Assembly (NCBI RefSeq): GCF_001441165.1
Contig: NZ_CP013126.1
Span: 3,129,551-3,193,550 of the forward strand
Reading direction: 5' to 3'
Source: Acidipropionibacterium acidipropionici
GTDB lineage: Bacteria; Actinomycetota; Actinomycetes; Propionibacteriales; Propionibacteriaceae
Length of the DNA: 64,000 bases
Shown here one piece after another: positions 51,224-58,401 of this stretch. A program made the translations under genes and the position numbers. Each line of letters starts with the position of its first letter. The stretch's first letter is position 1. The notes beneath the pieces were generated by a model, which made no database searches, was not told where the DNA came from, and saw nothing but the letters and a program-made list of their open reading frames with translations.

Positions 51224-53563
51224 TCAGCGCCTGGTGCGCACGGTCACGGAGTCCCCGGTGCGAGACAGCACGACGGCGCCCTGCTGGTCGGTGCGGGCCA
51301 CCTTCATGCCCATCCGCGAGGCCATCGTCAGGGCGGCCCGGGAGGGGTGCCCGTAGCTGTTGTCGACGCCGGCCGAGGCCACCGCGACGCGCGCCCCGGT
51401 CCGCCCCCAGAAGAGCTGGTCCTGCCGCGATGATCCGTGGTGGGGCATCACGATGACGTCGGCCTGCAGCGTCTCCCCGGTGCGCCGGGCCCTGGCCTGT
51501 CCGTCGGGCTCGGCGTCGCCGGGCAGCAGTACCGTCAGTCCGCCGGAGGTGGCGCGGATGATGACCGAGGAGTCGTTCTCGGCCGATGACTCCTCCGAGG
51601 CCCCGTCGTCGGGCTGCGGATCGCCGGGGTCCCCGGAGCCCGCCACCGCGATCCGGGCCTGCCCGACGGTCAGGGCGTCCCCGGGCGCGGCGGGACGCAC
51701 CACGGCACCGACGGCCCGCGCCTGGGCGGCGACCCTGGCGGCCTCGCCGGCCGGGGAGGCCAGTGGGGAGACGAGGAGGAGTTTGACGCCGTGGGACAGT
51801 GCGGCCTGCAGGCCCCCGATGTGGTCGGCGTGGTAGTGGCTCGCGACGATCACCGGCACGTTCCGGATCCCGAGCTCCTCCAGGCAGTCGGCCAGCGGGC
51901 CCGGGTCGGGGCCGGTGTCGACCAGGACCGCCGAGGCCCGGTCGGCGCGGACCAGCGCGGCGCTTCCCTGGCCGACGTCGCAGATCGCCACCTGCCAGGG
52001 GCCCGGCCAACCCGGCACCGGCGGCCTGATGACCGATGCCGCCAGCACCACCACTCCGGTGAGGACGGCTCGCCACGGCGAGCTCAGCAGCCAGGGCGTC
52101 ACGAGTGCCAGCCCGAGGCACAGTCCGGCGAGAACCGCCAGCGTCGCGGGCCGGGCGGGCCAGCTCAGCGCGGCGGCAGGTGCCCGGGCTCCGGCCGAGG
52201 CGATCAGGAGGATCGGCTGGACGCACCATCCCGCCAGCCATCCGGGAATCACCCCCAGAGGCGCCCATACCGCACCCAGCAGGGCGGCGGCCATCCCCAG
52301 TGCGGTCGCGGGGGCGACGAAGGGGGCGGCCGTGACGTTGGCGATCAGTCCGGTGGTGCTCACCTGACCGGACAACCAGGTGATCAGCGGCTGGGTGGCG
52401 AGCTGCGCGGCCCAGGGCACCACGACCACGCGGGCCAGATTCTCCGACAACCAGCCCGACATCGCCCGCGCCCAGCCGGTGGTCCACCACAGGATGCCGG
52501 TGGTGGCGCACACCGACAGCCAGAAACCCACCGACCGGCTCAGCCAGGGGTCCACCAGCATGAGGGACATGACGGCCACGCACAGCGCCCGCAGGCCCGC
52601 GGCGCGGTCGAAGGACAGCCCTGCCGCCGCCAGCGTCACCACCCCCATCGCGGCCGCGCGCACCACCGAGGGCTCAGACCGGCAGACGATGACGAAGCCG
52701 GCCACCGCGACCACCGACAGGGCCCGCAGCGGACGCCGTCGCAGGCCCAGCCAGGACCCGGCCCACCACATCAGGGCGGTGGTGGAGGCCAGGTTGGCCC
52801 CCGAGACGGCCATCAGGTGGGTCAGGGCGGTGGCCCGGAACGCCTCGTCGATCTCCTCGCTGACCGCCGAGGTGTCCCCCACCACCAGGGAGGGCACCAG
52901 CGCGCGCTGGTCGGCGCTGTTGAACCGGACCGAGGCGACCAGCGCCTCCCTGATCCGGTTCACCCCCCGGTCCAGGGCCCGGGGGCCGGCCACCACGCGC
53001 GGGGGCGACCGGAGTCTCAGCACCCCCGCCGTCGGGTCGCTGCGCTCCGCGGGCGCCAGCACCCCGGCCAGCTCGACCCGCTCCCCCACTGACAGGTGCG
53101 CGGCCGCGCCCCTGGTGGCGCCGGAGGCTGTGACCAGGACGGCGGAGGACTGCCGGACGCGCAGGCCCCGACCGCTCACCTGATCGGCGGTGACGTGGAT
53201 GAGCACCGCATCGGGCCGGGCACCGCGGGCCGCCAGGATCCGAGGATCCGAGGCGACCCGGCCGGTCACGGTGACGGCGGCCCGGTCCCGGGCCAGGACG
53301 GCGATCGCCGAGTCGTGCAGTCGATCGGCCCGCACCCATGCGGTGACGGCCACCACCGCGAGGACCGCCAGAGCGGCGCCGGCCTTCCAGTGGCGCCGCC
53401 ATGCCGCGATCAGGCAGGCGGCCAGGGCCGTGGTCACCAGTGCCGTCATGACGCGGCCGGAGGCGACGGTGGCCACCAGCGCGGCGACCACCGCGGCCAC
53501 CGCCAGGGGGAGGGTTCTCAGGTCCGGTCGGGGAGCCGGGTCGGGCGGATCAGACCCGGACAT
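51224..53563 (-). CDS. comEC: DNA uptake channel protein ComEC
   Basis: This 779-residue polytopic membrane protein forms the inner-membrane channel for transforming DNA. It has N-terminal helices and an external oligonucleotide-binding-like domain, a competence domain of about eight helices (including MAVSGANLASTTALMWW), and a C-terminal metallo-beta-lactamase domain with ASHYHADHIGG and MPHHGSSRQ. All three parts are in frame, so the protein looks functional. The start overlaps the comEA end by 14 bases, which indicates coupled translation. The presence of comEA and comEC suggests natural competence; pilus genes would have to lie elsewhere. Confidence 0.93.
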   Translation of the reverse strand: MSGSDPPDPAPRPDLRTLPLAVAAVVAALVATVASGRVMTALVTTALAACLIAAWRRHWKAGAALAVLAVVAVTAWVRADRLHDSAIAVLARDRAAVTVTGRVASDPRILAARGARPDAVLIHVTADQVSGRGLRVRQSSAVLVTASGATRGAAAHLSVGERVELAGVLAPAERSDPTAGVLRLRSPPRVVAGPRALDRGVNRIREALVASVRFNSADQRALVPSLVVGDTSAVSEEIDEAFRATALTHLMAVSGANLASTTALMWWAGSWLGLRRRPLRALSVVAVAGFVIVCRSEPSVVRAAAMGVVTLAAAGLSFDRAAGLRALCVAVMSLMLVDPWLSRSVGFWLSVCATTGILWWTTGWARAMSGWLSENLARVVVVPWAAQLATQPLITWLSGQVSTTGLIANVTAAPFVAPATALGMAAALLGAVWAPLGVIPGWLAGWCVQPILLIASAGARAPAAALSWPARPATLAVLAGLCLGLALVTPWLLSSPWRAVLTGVVVLAASVIRPPVPGWPGPWQVAICDVGQGSAALVRADRASAVLVDTGPDPGPLADCLEELGIRNVPVIVASHYHADHIGGLQAALSHGVKLLLVSPLASPAGEAARVAAQARAVGAVVRPAAPGDALTVGQARIAVAGSGDPGDPQPDDGASEESSAENDSSVIIRATSGGLTVLLPGDAEPDGQARARRTGETLQADVIVMPHHGSSRQDQLFWGRTGARVAVASAGVDNSYGHPSRAALTMASRMGMKVARTDQQGAVVLSRTGDSVTVRTRR

Positions 53564-54428
53564 GGTCCTTGATCCGGGCGTACGTCTTGGGGCCGATCCC
53601 GTCGATCTCCTGGAGCTCGGAGACGTCGGTGAACCGGCCATGGGTCTGCCTCCAGGCCAGGATCTTGGCTGCGGTGGCCGGGCCGACCCCGTCGAGGGTC
53701 TGGAGCTGCTCGGAGGTGGCTGAATTGAGGTCGATGCGCGCATCCTGCCCGCCGGTCCCCGGGGCCGTCGTCGCGCCCGAGGCGCCCGGCTGCGGGCCGG
53801 GGGTCGCCGACGCGGCCCCGGAGGCCCGGGCGTCCGGACCGATGACCCGTCCGTTGCCCGATCCGGGGATCTGCACCTGGCATCCGTCGCACACGGGTGC
53901 TGCCAGGTTGAGGTCTCCGGGGTGGGCTCCCCGCGACAGGCCGCCCGCGGCTCTCAGGGCGTCGACCACCCGTGCCCCGGCGGTGAGTGCGTAGACGTCG
54001 GGGCGCACCACCTTTCCGGTGACGTGCACCCTGATGGTCGCCGCGGGGCTGGTCCGGGCTGCGGGCACGGGAGAGCCCGACGCCGAGACCGGCGAGGAGG
54101 GGGAGGCCGAGGCGGGGGTCATCGACGCGGCCAGCGGGACGACGGTGGCCCGGGAGCGCAGCAGCATGACCGCCACCACGGTGAGGACGAGCACCAGGAT
54201 GATGCCCAGGGCCGACAGATGCGAGCGGCCAAGGGTCACCGGTGGCCGGGCTCCGGGTTCGGAGGCCCGGCCGGCGCCGGTGGAGCTGTCCTCGAGGCCG
54301 GCCTGAGGATCGGCGGGGGTGTCGGGGCCGTCCCGCCCTGAGGCACGGCGAGGGCCGGCGTCCCGGGTCGGCAGCCCGGCCAGCAGGTCCTCGAGGCGGT
54401 CCCGGTAGGAGTCGTGTGCGGTCTTCAC
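53550..54428 (-). CDS. comEA: Competence DNA receptor ComEA
   Basis: This 292-residue membrane-anchored protein binds incoming double-stranded DNA. It has a cytoplasmic N-terminal stretch (1-67), one membrane helix (about 70-92), a Ser/Pro-rich linker, a SLBB-like domain (IRVHVTGKVVRPDVYAL to VQIP), another linker, and a C-terminal double helix-hairpin-helix (LNSATSEQLQTLDGVGPATA and IDGIGPKTYARI). The GTG start has a GATAAC box 6 bases upstream within a composite element also found before the DUF4192 gene. It is the first gene of a comEA-comEC operon. Confidence 0.93.
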   Translation of the reverse strand: MKTAHDSYRDRLEDLLAGLPTRDAGPRRASGRDGPDTPADPQAGLEDSSTGAGRASEPGARPPVTLGRSHLSALGIILVLVLTVVAVMLLRSRATVVPLAASMTPASASPSSPVSASGSPVPAARTSPAATIRVHVTGKVVRPDVYALTAGARVVDALRAAGGLSRGAHPGDLNLAAPVCDGCQVQIPGSGNGRVIGPDARASGAASATPGPQPGASGATTAPGTGGQDARIDLNSATSEQLQTLDGVGPATAAKILAWRQTHGRFTDVSELQEIDGIGPKTYARIKDHVRV

Positions 54429-54487
54429 ACCTCAGTTATCGCTGTCGGGCACCCCGATTTGTTCGATCGCCGGGAGCCTGTGGAAAC
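54428..54487 (-). promoter_or_regulatory. Composite comEA promoter shared with the DUF4192 gene
   Basis: Read on the minus strand it runs from a DnaA-box-like GTTTCCACA (54479-54487), through ATCGG (54454-54458), to GATAAC (54435-54440) and the GTG at 54428. The same blocks at one base different spacing precede the start at 58287. GATAAC is placed like a leaderless -10 box. Confidence 0.6.
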
Positions 54488-54508
54488 AGCGGGCGCCGGA
54501 CCCGCGAG

Positions 54509-54517
54509 TTGTCCACA
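54509..54517 (+). promoter_or_regulatory. Exact actinobacterial DnaA box
   Basis: TTGTCCACA matches the consensus DnaA box of mycobacteria and streptomycetes. It is a single box in the comEA-leuS gap, so it is not an origin, but it may modulate comEA. Confidence 0.5.
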
Positions 54518-54584
54518 GGTCCGGCGCCCCGCTCAGTTCACTCCGGCACGGCTCACGTCACGTCGGGATCACGTCACACCGGCA

Positions 54585-57068
<2,484 letters not shown>

Positions 57069-57139
57069 CGTCACACCTCTCGTCGAATGGCTGCCAGGTC
57101 TCAGCAGCCACATACCCGACGAATCCTAGCGAAGACGCC

Positions 57140-57174: not shown

Positions 57175-58287
57175 TCACCTCCTGCGCTGCCGCCGGTCGC
57201 GGCGCCTGCGGGGCCGCCCGGAGCCCCGACTCCGGTCCGGGCCGGGGATGCCTTTCTGCGGCGGCCGGTTCGGCCAGTTCGAGGGGTTTCCGCCGCTCGG
57301 GAGCTGGGTCAGGATCCCGGCGGCGAGCACCTCGGGATCGGGGTTGATGTCCAGCCACTCGACAGGATGGAGGACGCTGCGCTGCAGGAAGTCCAGAGCT
57401 CCGAAGAGGGTGTCGGTGGGATCCAGGGCGGCCGCCCTCTCCAGGCAGCAGCTCTCCAACGCTCCGTCCCCGGCCAGCCAGGCCGCCAGCCCGCAGAGCA
57501 TGAGGGGCCGGGTGGCCAGCTCGTCGGGGGCGTGGGCGAGCACCGCGGTCCACACCTCCAGCAGCGGGCGGGCCGCGCTCTGGCAGGTGGAGACCCACAC
57601 GGTCGTGGCGAGGCGGTCGTGGGTCAGCAGGCAGGCGATCCGCAGCGCCGCCTCGGGGCCGGGCGGGGTCTGTGTCCCGAAGGCCTGCCCGATGATCTCG
57701 GTGAGGGCCTCGGTCGCCTCGTCGTTGGTGAGACCGTCGGAGAAGGCACGGGCCTGTTCGAGGAGCTGGGACTCCGAGGCGAGCAGCTCGGCACCGGGGC
57801 CGGCGACGGTCGCGGCCAGCGTGCTGCGGTCGGCGAGGACGCCGAGTCCCCGGTACACGGCCTCGGCCTGGACGACGGAGTCGGTGAGCACCCGATGGCC
57901 CTCGGCGCACTCGGGACGGTCCTCGCAGTACAGGCTCCACCAGCGCTCGCCGTCGGTGGCGATGGCGTCGCAGATCCGGCCGGCGCCCAGGCCGGCCTGG
58001 GCGACCATGAGGACGGCGCGCGCCCGGTCGGTGTCCCGGGAGTAGGCGATCACCAGGAATTCGGCGTCGGGGAATCTCAGCGCGACCGGGCCCAGGTGGT
58101 GGGCGAACCCGATCGGGTCGTCGACCTGGTCGAGGGAGGCTCGCACCGTGACCTCCAGCGTGGGGCCGACCACCAGGACGACCAGGTCCTCGTCGGGCCG
58201 GTAGCCCAACAGGTGGGGGACGATGCTGATGGCCTGGTCGACTGATCGGATGCGGACGGGGGGCATGGAATCTGTATCTGTTCTCAC
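57175..58287 (-). CDS. DUF4192-family protein
   Basis: This 370-residue protein belongs to the actinobacterial DUF4192 family of unknown function. Family-like parts are the N-terminal IVPHLLGYRPDEDLVVLVV, the central LVIAYSRDTDRARAVL, and WLAGDGALESCCLERA, followed by a low-complexity basic tail of about 30 residues rich in Arg, Gly and Pro that could bind nucleic acid. The GTG at 58287 lies at the same place in the shared promoter element as the comEA start. An ATG at 58266 is an alternative. It is divergent from a secreted anchored protein. Co-regulation with DNA uptake is inferred. Confidence 0.78.
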   Translation of the reverse strand: MRTDTDSMPPVRIRSVDQAISIVPHLLGYRPDEDLVVLVVGPTLEVTVRASLDQVDDPIGFAHHLGPVALRFPDAEFLVIAYSRDTDRARAVLMVAQAGLGAGRICDAIATDGERWWSLYCEDRPECAEGHRVLTDSVVQAEAVYRGLGVLADRSTLAATVAGPGAELLASESQLLEQARAFSDGLTNDEATEALTEIIGQAFGTQTPPGPEAALRIACLLTHDRLATTVWVSTCQSAARPLLEVWTAVLAHAPDELATRPLMLCGLAAWLAGDGALESCCLERAAALDPTDTLFGALDFLQRSVLHPVEWLDINPDPEVLAAGILTQLPSGGNPSNWPNRPPQKGIPGPDRSRGSGRPRRRRDRRQRRR

Positions 58288-58345
58288 ACCCCAGTTATCG
58301 TGGCCGCGCAGCCGATCTGTCGGCCCGCGGCAAATCTGTGGATAA
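58287..58345 (-). promoter_or_regulatory. Composite DUF4192 promoter with exact DnaA box
   Basis: On the minus strand TTATCCACA (58337-58345), ATCGG (58312-58316) and GATAAC (58294-58299) precede the GTG at 58287. Distances equal those upstream of comEA within one base. The DnaA box is an exact match to the E. coli consensus. Confidence 0.6.
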
Positions 58346-58401
58346 CTTCTTGGAATCGGCGTGAACGGCCCGGCCTGTGGACGACGTATCGTGTGAGCCC
58401 T

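Follow-up and report, generated by a model that had tools for sequence, protein, structure and literature searches.

The promoters of comEA and of a neighboring DUF4192 gene in Acidipropionibacterium acidipropionici are, very probably, members of one competence regulon of the Actinomycetes. The complete account that we favor, in which this regulon is controlled through paired boxes, appears likely on the strength of the promoter sequences. The constant part of these promoters is a pair of YYGTCCACAG boxes, with the near box at about –57 from the start codon; a second box often lies ~30 or 40 bp farther upstream, facing the same side of the helix. The pattern points to a hitherto unrecognized control switch that is common to DNA uptake and DUF4192 in Actinomycetes.

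The comEA and DUF4192 promoters share a block and a pair of boxes

The window analyzed here is a 64,000-nucleotide stretch of the A. acidipropionici genome (3.65 Mb, one contig). comEA, which encodes a competence protein with SLBB and DNA-binding helix-hairpin-helix domains (Pfam SLBB 7e-9, HHH_3 8e-20), occupies positions 53550–54428 of the minus strand. The DNA uptake channel gene comEC lies downstream on the same strand at 51224–53500 (Pfam Competence 5e-46, and Lactamase_B); its start codon is uncertain, the open frame reaches 53743, and the Pfam scan used 51224–53743. The DUF4192 gene (57175–58287, minus strand) matches Pfam DUF4192 (PF13830) at 9e-35, with a score of 121.5 bits compared to a curated cut-off of 27.8. 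A first-pass annotation had described comEA and the DUF4192 gene as unlinked. In fact the two share the minus strand, a distance of 3.86 kb separates their starts, and between them lies leuS (54585–57113, minus strand; Pfam tRNA-synt_1_2 5e-62), which is outside the regulon, and the two promoters are close neighbors in four other genomes of the genus too.

The annotation had also claimed that the same blocks stand upstream of both genes, and this was borne out: CGATAACTGRGGTGTGA occurs exactly at 54425–54441 and at 58284–58300, both on the minus strand, far above chance. With up to three mismatches, the window contains 3 matches compared to 0.08 expected, and none of 100 shuffles reached 3. 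At comEA the block consists of a predicted –10 element, GATAAC (54435–54440, minus strand; –12 to –7 from the GTG), together with TGAGGT, in the same register as the TAnnnT of comEA promoters of the class. It is preceded by a putative –35-like element, GAACAA (54459–54464, minus strand), followed by ATCGG, and this column is kept as CGACAGATC in promoter alignment A1. The corresponding predicted elements of the DUF4192 promoter, also on the minus strand, are GATAAC at 58294–58299 and CCGACA at 58318–58323, the latter followed by GATCGG. The GTG start of the DUF4192 gene is probably leaderless.

The TCCACA cores of the near boxes begin at –56 from the GTG in comEA and at –55 in DUF4192, so the one-base offset given in the first-pass annotation was right. 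The DnaA-box-like 9-mer that it had named is present at both genes, although the comEA near box, GTTTCCACAG (54478–54487, minus strand), is a weak one; the DUF4192 near box is TTATCCACA (58337–58345, minus strand), followed by GAT. A second box in each promoter had been overlooked. At comEA it is a perfect TTGTCCACA in inverted orientation (54509–54517, plus strand), 30 bp from the near box, and the same inverted-plus-direct pair at 30 bp is found in four further genomes (G027, G063, G047, G013). At DUF4192 the far box is TCGTCCACA (58376–58384, minus strand), 39 bp from the near box in the same orientation; the spacing is 39 bp in G003 and 40 bp in G027 and G063. The box logos at the two genes are alike: the boxes open with YY in 17 of 20 comEA and 14 of 17 DUF4192 cases, and the core is followed by G in 18 of 20 comEA and 14 of 17 DUF4192 cases.

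The likeness of the promoters could in principle reflect a recent duplication or a mobile repeat, considering that several copies exist in one genome and that one ssb promoter (in G003) does contain a tandem 39-bp duplication. Only the functional blocks agree while the spacers differ, as the annotation had argued against duplication, and orthologous promoters in other genera retain the layout. We consider this origin extremely unlikely.

The DUF4192 protein ends in a strongly basic, arginine-rich tail (window 57178–57300) that is seen in the proteins of the genus (alignment A2) and could bind nucleic acid. An AlphaFold2 model built from five sequences (mean pLDDT 71) has an N-terminal alpha/beta part and a C-terminal helical part. 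No PDB entry matched this model in Foldseek at E ≤ 0.001; the hits were weak, and many were to TPR proteins.

The composite motif marks a set of genes in A. acidipropionici and its relatives

The motif had been presented as a feature of two genes. Genome-wide, GATAACTGRGGT occurs eight times exactly, and 16 times with at most one mismatch compared to six for the reversed pattern. The genes behind the exact occurrences are comEA-comEC, DUF4192, an SSB gene, yraN (followed by comM and dprA), DUF559-like genes, and a DUF4244 Flp pilin gene with TadE-type genes. Three-mismatch matches located inside genes, before yidC or with no fitting gene (L011, L012, L016, L017, L018) were dropped. Nine sites were used to build a profile, R1; among them were the promoter of an M23 peptidase gene and a site that now lies before an IS256-type transposase gene. 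R1 gave 11 genome hits at E ≤ 4e-9, of which nine were the training sites; of the other two, one (E 1e-14) precedes a CpaE/TadZ-TadA-TadB-TadC operon and one (4e-9) a short DUF559-like frame. In this search the yraN site scored only 5e-3.

Taken as a whole, the gene set comprises comEA-comEC, DUF4192, yraN-comM-dprA, ssb, Tad/Flp pilus operons, an M23 cell-wall peptidase gene and about ten scattered, loosely DUF559/AbiEi-like genes with a box (L004, L005, L008, L009, L013, L066, L069, L077, L146, L148). The composite-motif search in this genome and its relatives, which the annotation had proposed, also marks dprA/comM, ssb, DNA-processing genes and the Tad pilus. The name DUF559-like is used loosely: among six proteins scanned, two exceeded the Pfam DUF559 cut-off, one matched a related model below its cut-off, and three were unmatched. 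From its promoters, the DUF559/AbiEi-like set looks like a large competence-linked family. The cpaB-like gene at 29.5 kb is named by resemblance and had no Pfam or NCBIfam match. At one DUF559-like locus (L069, G000:C1 383631–386102), an IS256-type transposase gene separates the gene from its com-type promoter.

At E ≤ 0.001, R1 matched 15 of 77 genomes of the family, namely all five of the genus and ten others. All 37 hits in the four other genus genomes precede comEA, DUF4192, ssb, M23, tadZ, flp or DUF559-like genes, with gene families assigned by BLAST to the proteins of the present genome. Outside the genus, eight of the 16 hits in the ten genomes were read; five of these precede regulon genes (three in G053 and one each in G013 and G060) and three do not. 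The full composite is thus nearly limited to the genus.

The boxes are paired at helical-turn spacings

Among 40 same-orientation box pairs from the five genus genomes, 13 were spaced 29–32 bp apart, 25 were spaced 39–41 bp apart, and two were at 17 and 23 bp; this count omits opposite-orientation pairs (comEA, cpaB), sites where a single box was recognized and a surplus copy at ssb in G003. Orthologous sites in this set are not independent, and in the present genome alone 12 of 12 same-orientation pairs fall within 29–32 or 39–41 bp. The G003 ssb promoter (L108) carries a box-holding 39-bp unit duplicated in tandem, which results in three boxes at 39-bp steps. In a second tad-like locus (L149, G000:C1 1004000–1009600), which starts with a SAF-domain gene (Pfam SAF 6e-8), two boxes are only 18 bp apart.

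The promoters fall into two classes. In class I, the near box is followed by the –35-like CGACAGATC and by a –10 element at –12 to –7, and the start codon mostly coincides with the expected transcription start, except at ssb and flp, whose starts lie 31 and 66 bp downstream of where the motif begins. Class II promoters (yraN, the cpaB-like gene and two DUF559-like genes) have the near box in inverted orientation and at a shorter distance. Because a housekeeping-like –10 element lies ~6 bp ahead of the start codon in most regulon members, most of the messages are probably leaderless.

Within the genus, the –10 block varies between species and genes (CGATAACTGRGG, CGAGAAGTTCAG, CGATAACTAGTGG, CTAGAACTGGG). 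Across the class, it reads TAnnnT in 19 aligned comEA promoters, and the twentieth (G126, left out of the alignment) has no TAnnnT there. This variation bears on the dedicated sigma factor that the first-pass annotation had offered as a possible driver. A ComX/SigX-like factor recognizing the CGATAACTG block would be consistent with G000 and G003, two genomes in which the stretch between –13 and the start codon is nearly constant. The block nevertheless changes between species of one genus while the boxes stay, and TAnnnT is present in 19 of the 20 class comEA promoters considered. Since the –10 drifts, a sigma factor is disfavored, and we judge it very unlikely. What stays fixed is the pair of upstream boxes, and this points to an activator.

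Boxes are conserved at many comEA and DUF4192 promoters across the class

Conservation at the orthologous promoters, which if poor would have counted against the first-pass proposal, is seen at many comEA and DUF4192 genes across the class. Among 35 comEA promoters of the family, TCCACA begins at –57 or –56 in 19 and at –88 to –85 in eight; in 13 comEA promoters of other families it is found at –58 to –56 in six. Among 40 DUF4192 promoters from across the class, it lies at –58 or –57 in 13 and at –88 to –85 in eight. The family set started with 40 regions, from which four without the frame (G010, G002, G068, G033) and one with too short an upstream region (G005) were removed, and the class set with 20 regions, seven of them without the frame. 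Of the 125 genomes that have a DUF4192 hit, 40 supplied promoters; they were selected so as to be diverse and to match DUF4192 nearly in full.

When the whole interval from –64 to –50 was considered, a box was present in 21 of 35 comEA promoters within the family, 7 of 13 outside it and 18 of 40 DUF4192 promoters, compared to means below 0.1 and a largest value of 2 for letter-shuffled sequences. Only exact TCCACA was counted, with variants unscored, and on this basis the remaining 14 of 35, 6 of 13 and 22 of 40 promoters have no exact core in the interval.

Our control consisted of 20 regions of ~20 kb around comEC (ten from the family, ten from elsewhere), holding 232 genes with noncoding upstream DNA. 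The core was located at –64 to –50 in 22 of these genes: 15 comEA genes, identified by sequence motif and overlapping partly with the promoter set, five DUF4192 genes, each identified by Pfam, and two genes that matched nothing in Pfam. A rule, the same for controls and targets, set the start codons, which are uncertain, and several candidates per gene were allowed in the control and later comEA sets.

Genomes without a DUF4192 hit retain the comEA box in 16 of 18 promoters, a count that includes at least two (G086, G171) counted only through an internal start codon; 20 of the 23 such genomes were taken, and two (G085, G110) had no frame. Because the comEA boxes persist without it, DUF4192 would be a member of the regulon, neither its regulator nor required for it, and we rejected it as a candidate regulator. 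In a further set of comEA promoters from other genomes, the box was present in 8 of 13; here 30 genomes yielded loci from 14, one of them without a frame (G099), and the rest gave a different long helix-hairpin-helix protein. DUF4192 is present in 125 and ComEC in 145 of 148 sampled genomes, and since both are near-universal their co-occurrence is uninformative. DUF4244 promoters, read at 25 of 30 fetched loci, gave a mixed picture with an upstream box in part of them, perhaps because this pilin is often within an operon.

A promoter model built from comEA alone recovers other regulon families

A second model, R2, was built from 19 of the 20 class comEA promoters (G126 left out), in which TCCACA, TA...T and TG are invariant. 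It was run on six distant genomes, three of which were sources of training sequences, and its E-values are rough. There were more than 150 matches; 15 of the 30 loci that were read belong to regulon families, or 12 of 27 once the three training sites are set aside. These 15 loci are comEA (four, including the three training sites), CpaB-type genes (four: two by model and two by eye, one with a broken frame), M23 (two), AbiEi/DUF559 (two, one of them below the cut-off), and DUF4192, recA and ssb (one each). The recA and ssb loci have a double box, and M23 has three boxes.

The other 15 loci are five small WXG100/EspC-like proteins, one FHA protein and nine other genes or places with no gene. 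The WXG100/EspC-like genes stand behind com-type promoters in four distant genomes (L379, L390, L392, L396 and L397; G156, G158 twice, G187 and G116). L396 alone among the five proteins passes the Pfam WXG100 cut-off. These promoters hint at a possible link between type VII secretion and competence.

Candidate readers of the box

In the present genome, TTRTCCACAG occurs 41 times compared to five for the reversed pattern. Regulon loci account for 24 of these boxes, recA for one, the origin/par region (1139–1153 kb) for six and other places for ten. The figure of 24 is a generous reading that includes three boxes in the second tad locus, one of them apparently inside a gene, and two at genes that are DUF559-like by eye. 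With regard to the concern, raised in the first pass, that the motif might sit at many unrelated genes, only two other genes among the 232 controls carry it, yet 10 of the 41 genome boxes are at genes without a known competence link. At recA (L156, G000:C1 3023306–3023500) a TTATCCACAG box is accompanied by TTGTCGGTG-N8-TACAGT right before the gene; the latter resembles a PafBC damage promoter, and such a motif was noticed by eye at recA only.

Directly upstream of dnaA are two copies of GTTGTCCACAG and one each of GCTGTCCACAG, GTTATCCACAG and GTTGTCCACAT. In its letters, the com box YYGTCCACAG is indistinguishable from the boxes beside dnaA in this genome. A review table gives TTGTCCACA as the DnaA box with high affinity in both M. 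tuberculosis and S. coelicolor (PMC4285127, in excerpt). DnaA is the simplest candidate because the box letters match the DnaA box, and from the letters we give it an even chance of being the reader. DnaA in this role would couple DNA uptake to the replication state and the nutrient status of the cell.

Whichever protein binds, the fixed position, mostly fixed orientation and helical phasing of the boxes upstream of an ordinary –10 argue for a cooperative activator that works with the housekeeping polymerase. It would bind the two boxes cooperatively, recruit ordinary RNA polymerase and switch the whole set on together. DUF4192 would then act in DNA uptake or processing.

A dedicated competence activator other than DnaA, conserved in the class and reading a site that has grown DnaA-box-like, with paired boxes in the style of ComK, is a real possibility, though we lean slightly against it. 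The strict position, orientation and phasing of the boxes would be expected of such a protein, and the com boxes of the genus extend to GTTGTCCACAGAT while origin boxes vary past the tenth letter. An HTH-17 protein of M. luteus, Mlut_14660, is implicated by mutants with raised com expression: excerpts of PMC8467076 place this small protein beside a CpaB-type gene, report that it or its 5' UTR is mutated in most of the com-raised mutants, and state that the missense change R64W alone restored the phenotype. Here, however, the box agrees with the DnaA box letter for letter, down to the YY with which it opens. Among the sites read, none was noticed to have a regulator gene behind it, and reading the neighborhood of the cpaB-like gene in this genome by eye revealed no HTH-17 gene.

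Alternatively, these could be DnaA sites with a role in replication or DnaA titration that lie near competence genes by accident, since oriC/par, the region upstream of dnaB and other places have boxes as well. Against it, the boxes keep a constant distance and orientation relative to start codons across dozens of genomes, and 20 of the 22 promoter-positioned boxes in the control regions are at comEA or DUF4192. Such a coincidence is highly improbable.

Returning to DnaA as the activator, the fullest form of this proposal would have DnaA sitting on two boxes in phase, at about –57 and –87/–97, and directly activating natural competence throughout the Actinomycetes, so that uptake is linked with replication and nutrients. 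The switch would extend to DUF4192, DUF559 nuclease-like proteins and small secreted proteins of the WXG100/ESX type, with type VII secretion tied to DNA exchange. This remains tentative, and we place it somewhat short of even.

Discussion

The interpretation given in the first-pass annotation is partly supported. One control element common to the DNA-uptake genes and DUF4192 finds support in the regulon-wide promoter matches and in the conservation at orthologues; a dedicated sigma factor does not, as the –10 block varies between the species and genes of the genus and the upstream box pair is the fixed part.

In Bacillus subtilis, the ComK regulon is controlled by paired activator boxes at helical-turn spacings and unites late com genes with ssb, dprA and recA. 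The regulon described here resembles it in the paired boxes with such spacings and in the com, ssb, dprA and recA genes, and differs in having YYGTCCACAG in place of AT-boxes and a Tad/Flp pilus. DnaA serves as a transcription factor in E. coli and B. subtilis, where its 9-mer is located near promoters of DNA-metabolism genes, and the same 9-mer is near DNA-metabolism promoters here. We know of no competence regulon under DnaA. Among the papers listed in a search of titles and the first lines of abstracts, with subscription papers and preprints outside its scope, none linked DnaA or a promoter motif with competence. As in the streptococcal ComX/SigX regulon (PMC8467076, in excerpt), one short signal marks nearly all of the transformation genes. 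Unlike that system, the conserved signal here is a predicted upstream activator site, and the –10 is ordinary and drifting.

Among Actinomycetes, competence is described for M. luteus, where according to excerpts of the published reports it is Tad-dependent and nutrient-responsive with an unidentified regulator (PMC4322843, PMC12849477, PMC8467076). The excerpted text of PMC4322843 states that tad genes are needed for transformation and that M. luteus has no ComK homologue; in that of PMC8467076, loss of the CpaB-type gene costs 10^4-fold in transformability. As far as these excerpts go, comEA/EC and Tad genes are needed there, the CpaB-type gene is critical and induction is linked to growth, and the same types of genes are found in the regulon here. 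Competence in M. luteus is also linked to nutrients and (p)ppGpp (PMC6667448, in excerpt), which would fit control through DnaA. The abstract of a 2026 M. luteus paper still lists the upstream signals or regulatory cascade of competence as to be identified (PMC12849477).

With a promoter code legible in the sequence itself, the control of competence becomes testable, and the code would predict which Actinomycetes have a working competence program. It also names a parts list, with DUF4192, ssb, the M23 peptidase and the DUF559 proteins. For DUF4192 it is the first functional lead, and it provides one predicted binding site as bait for finding the regulator.
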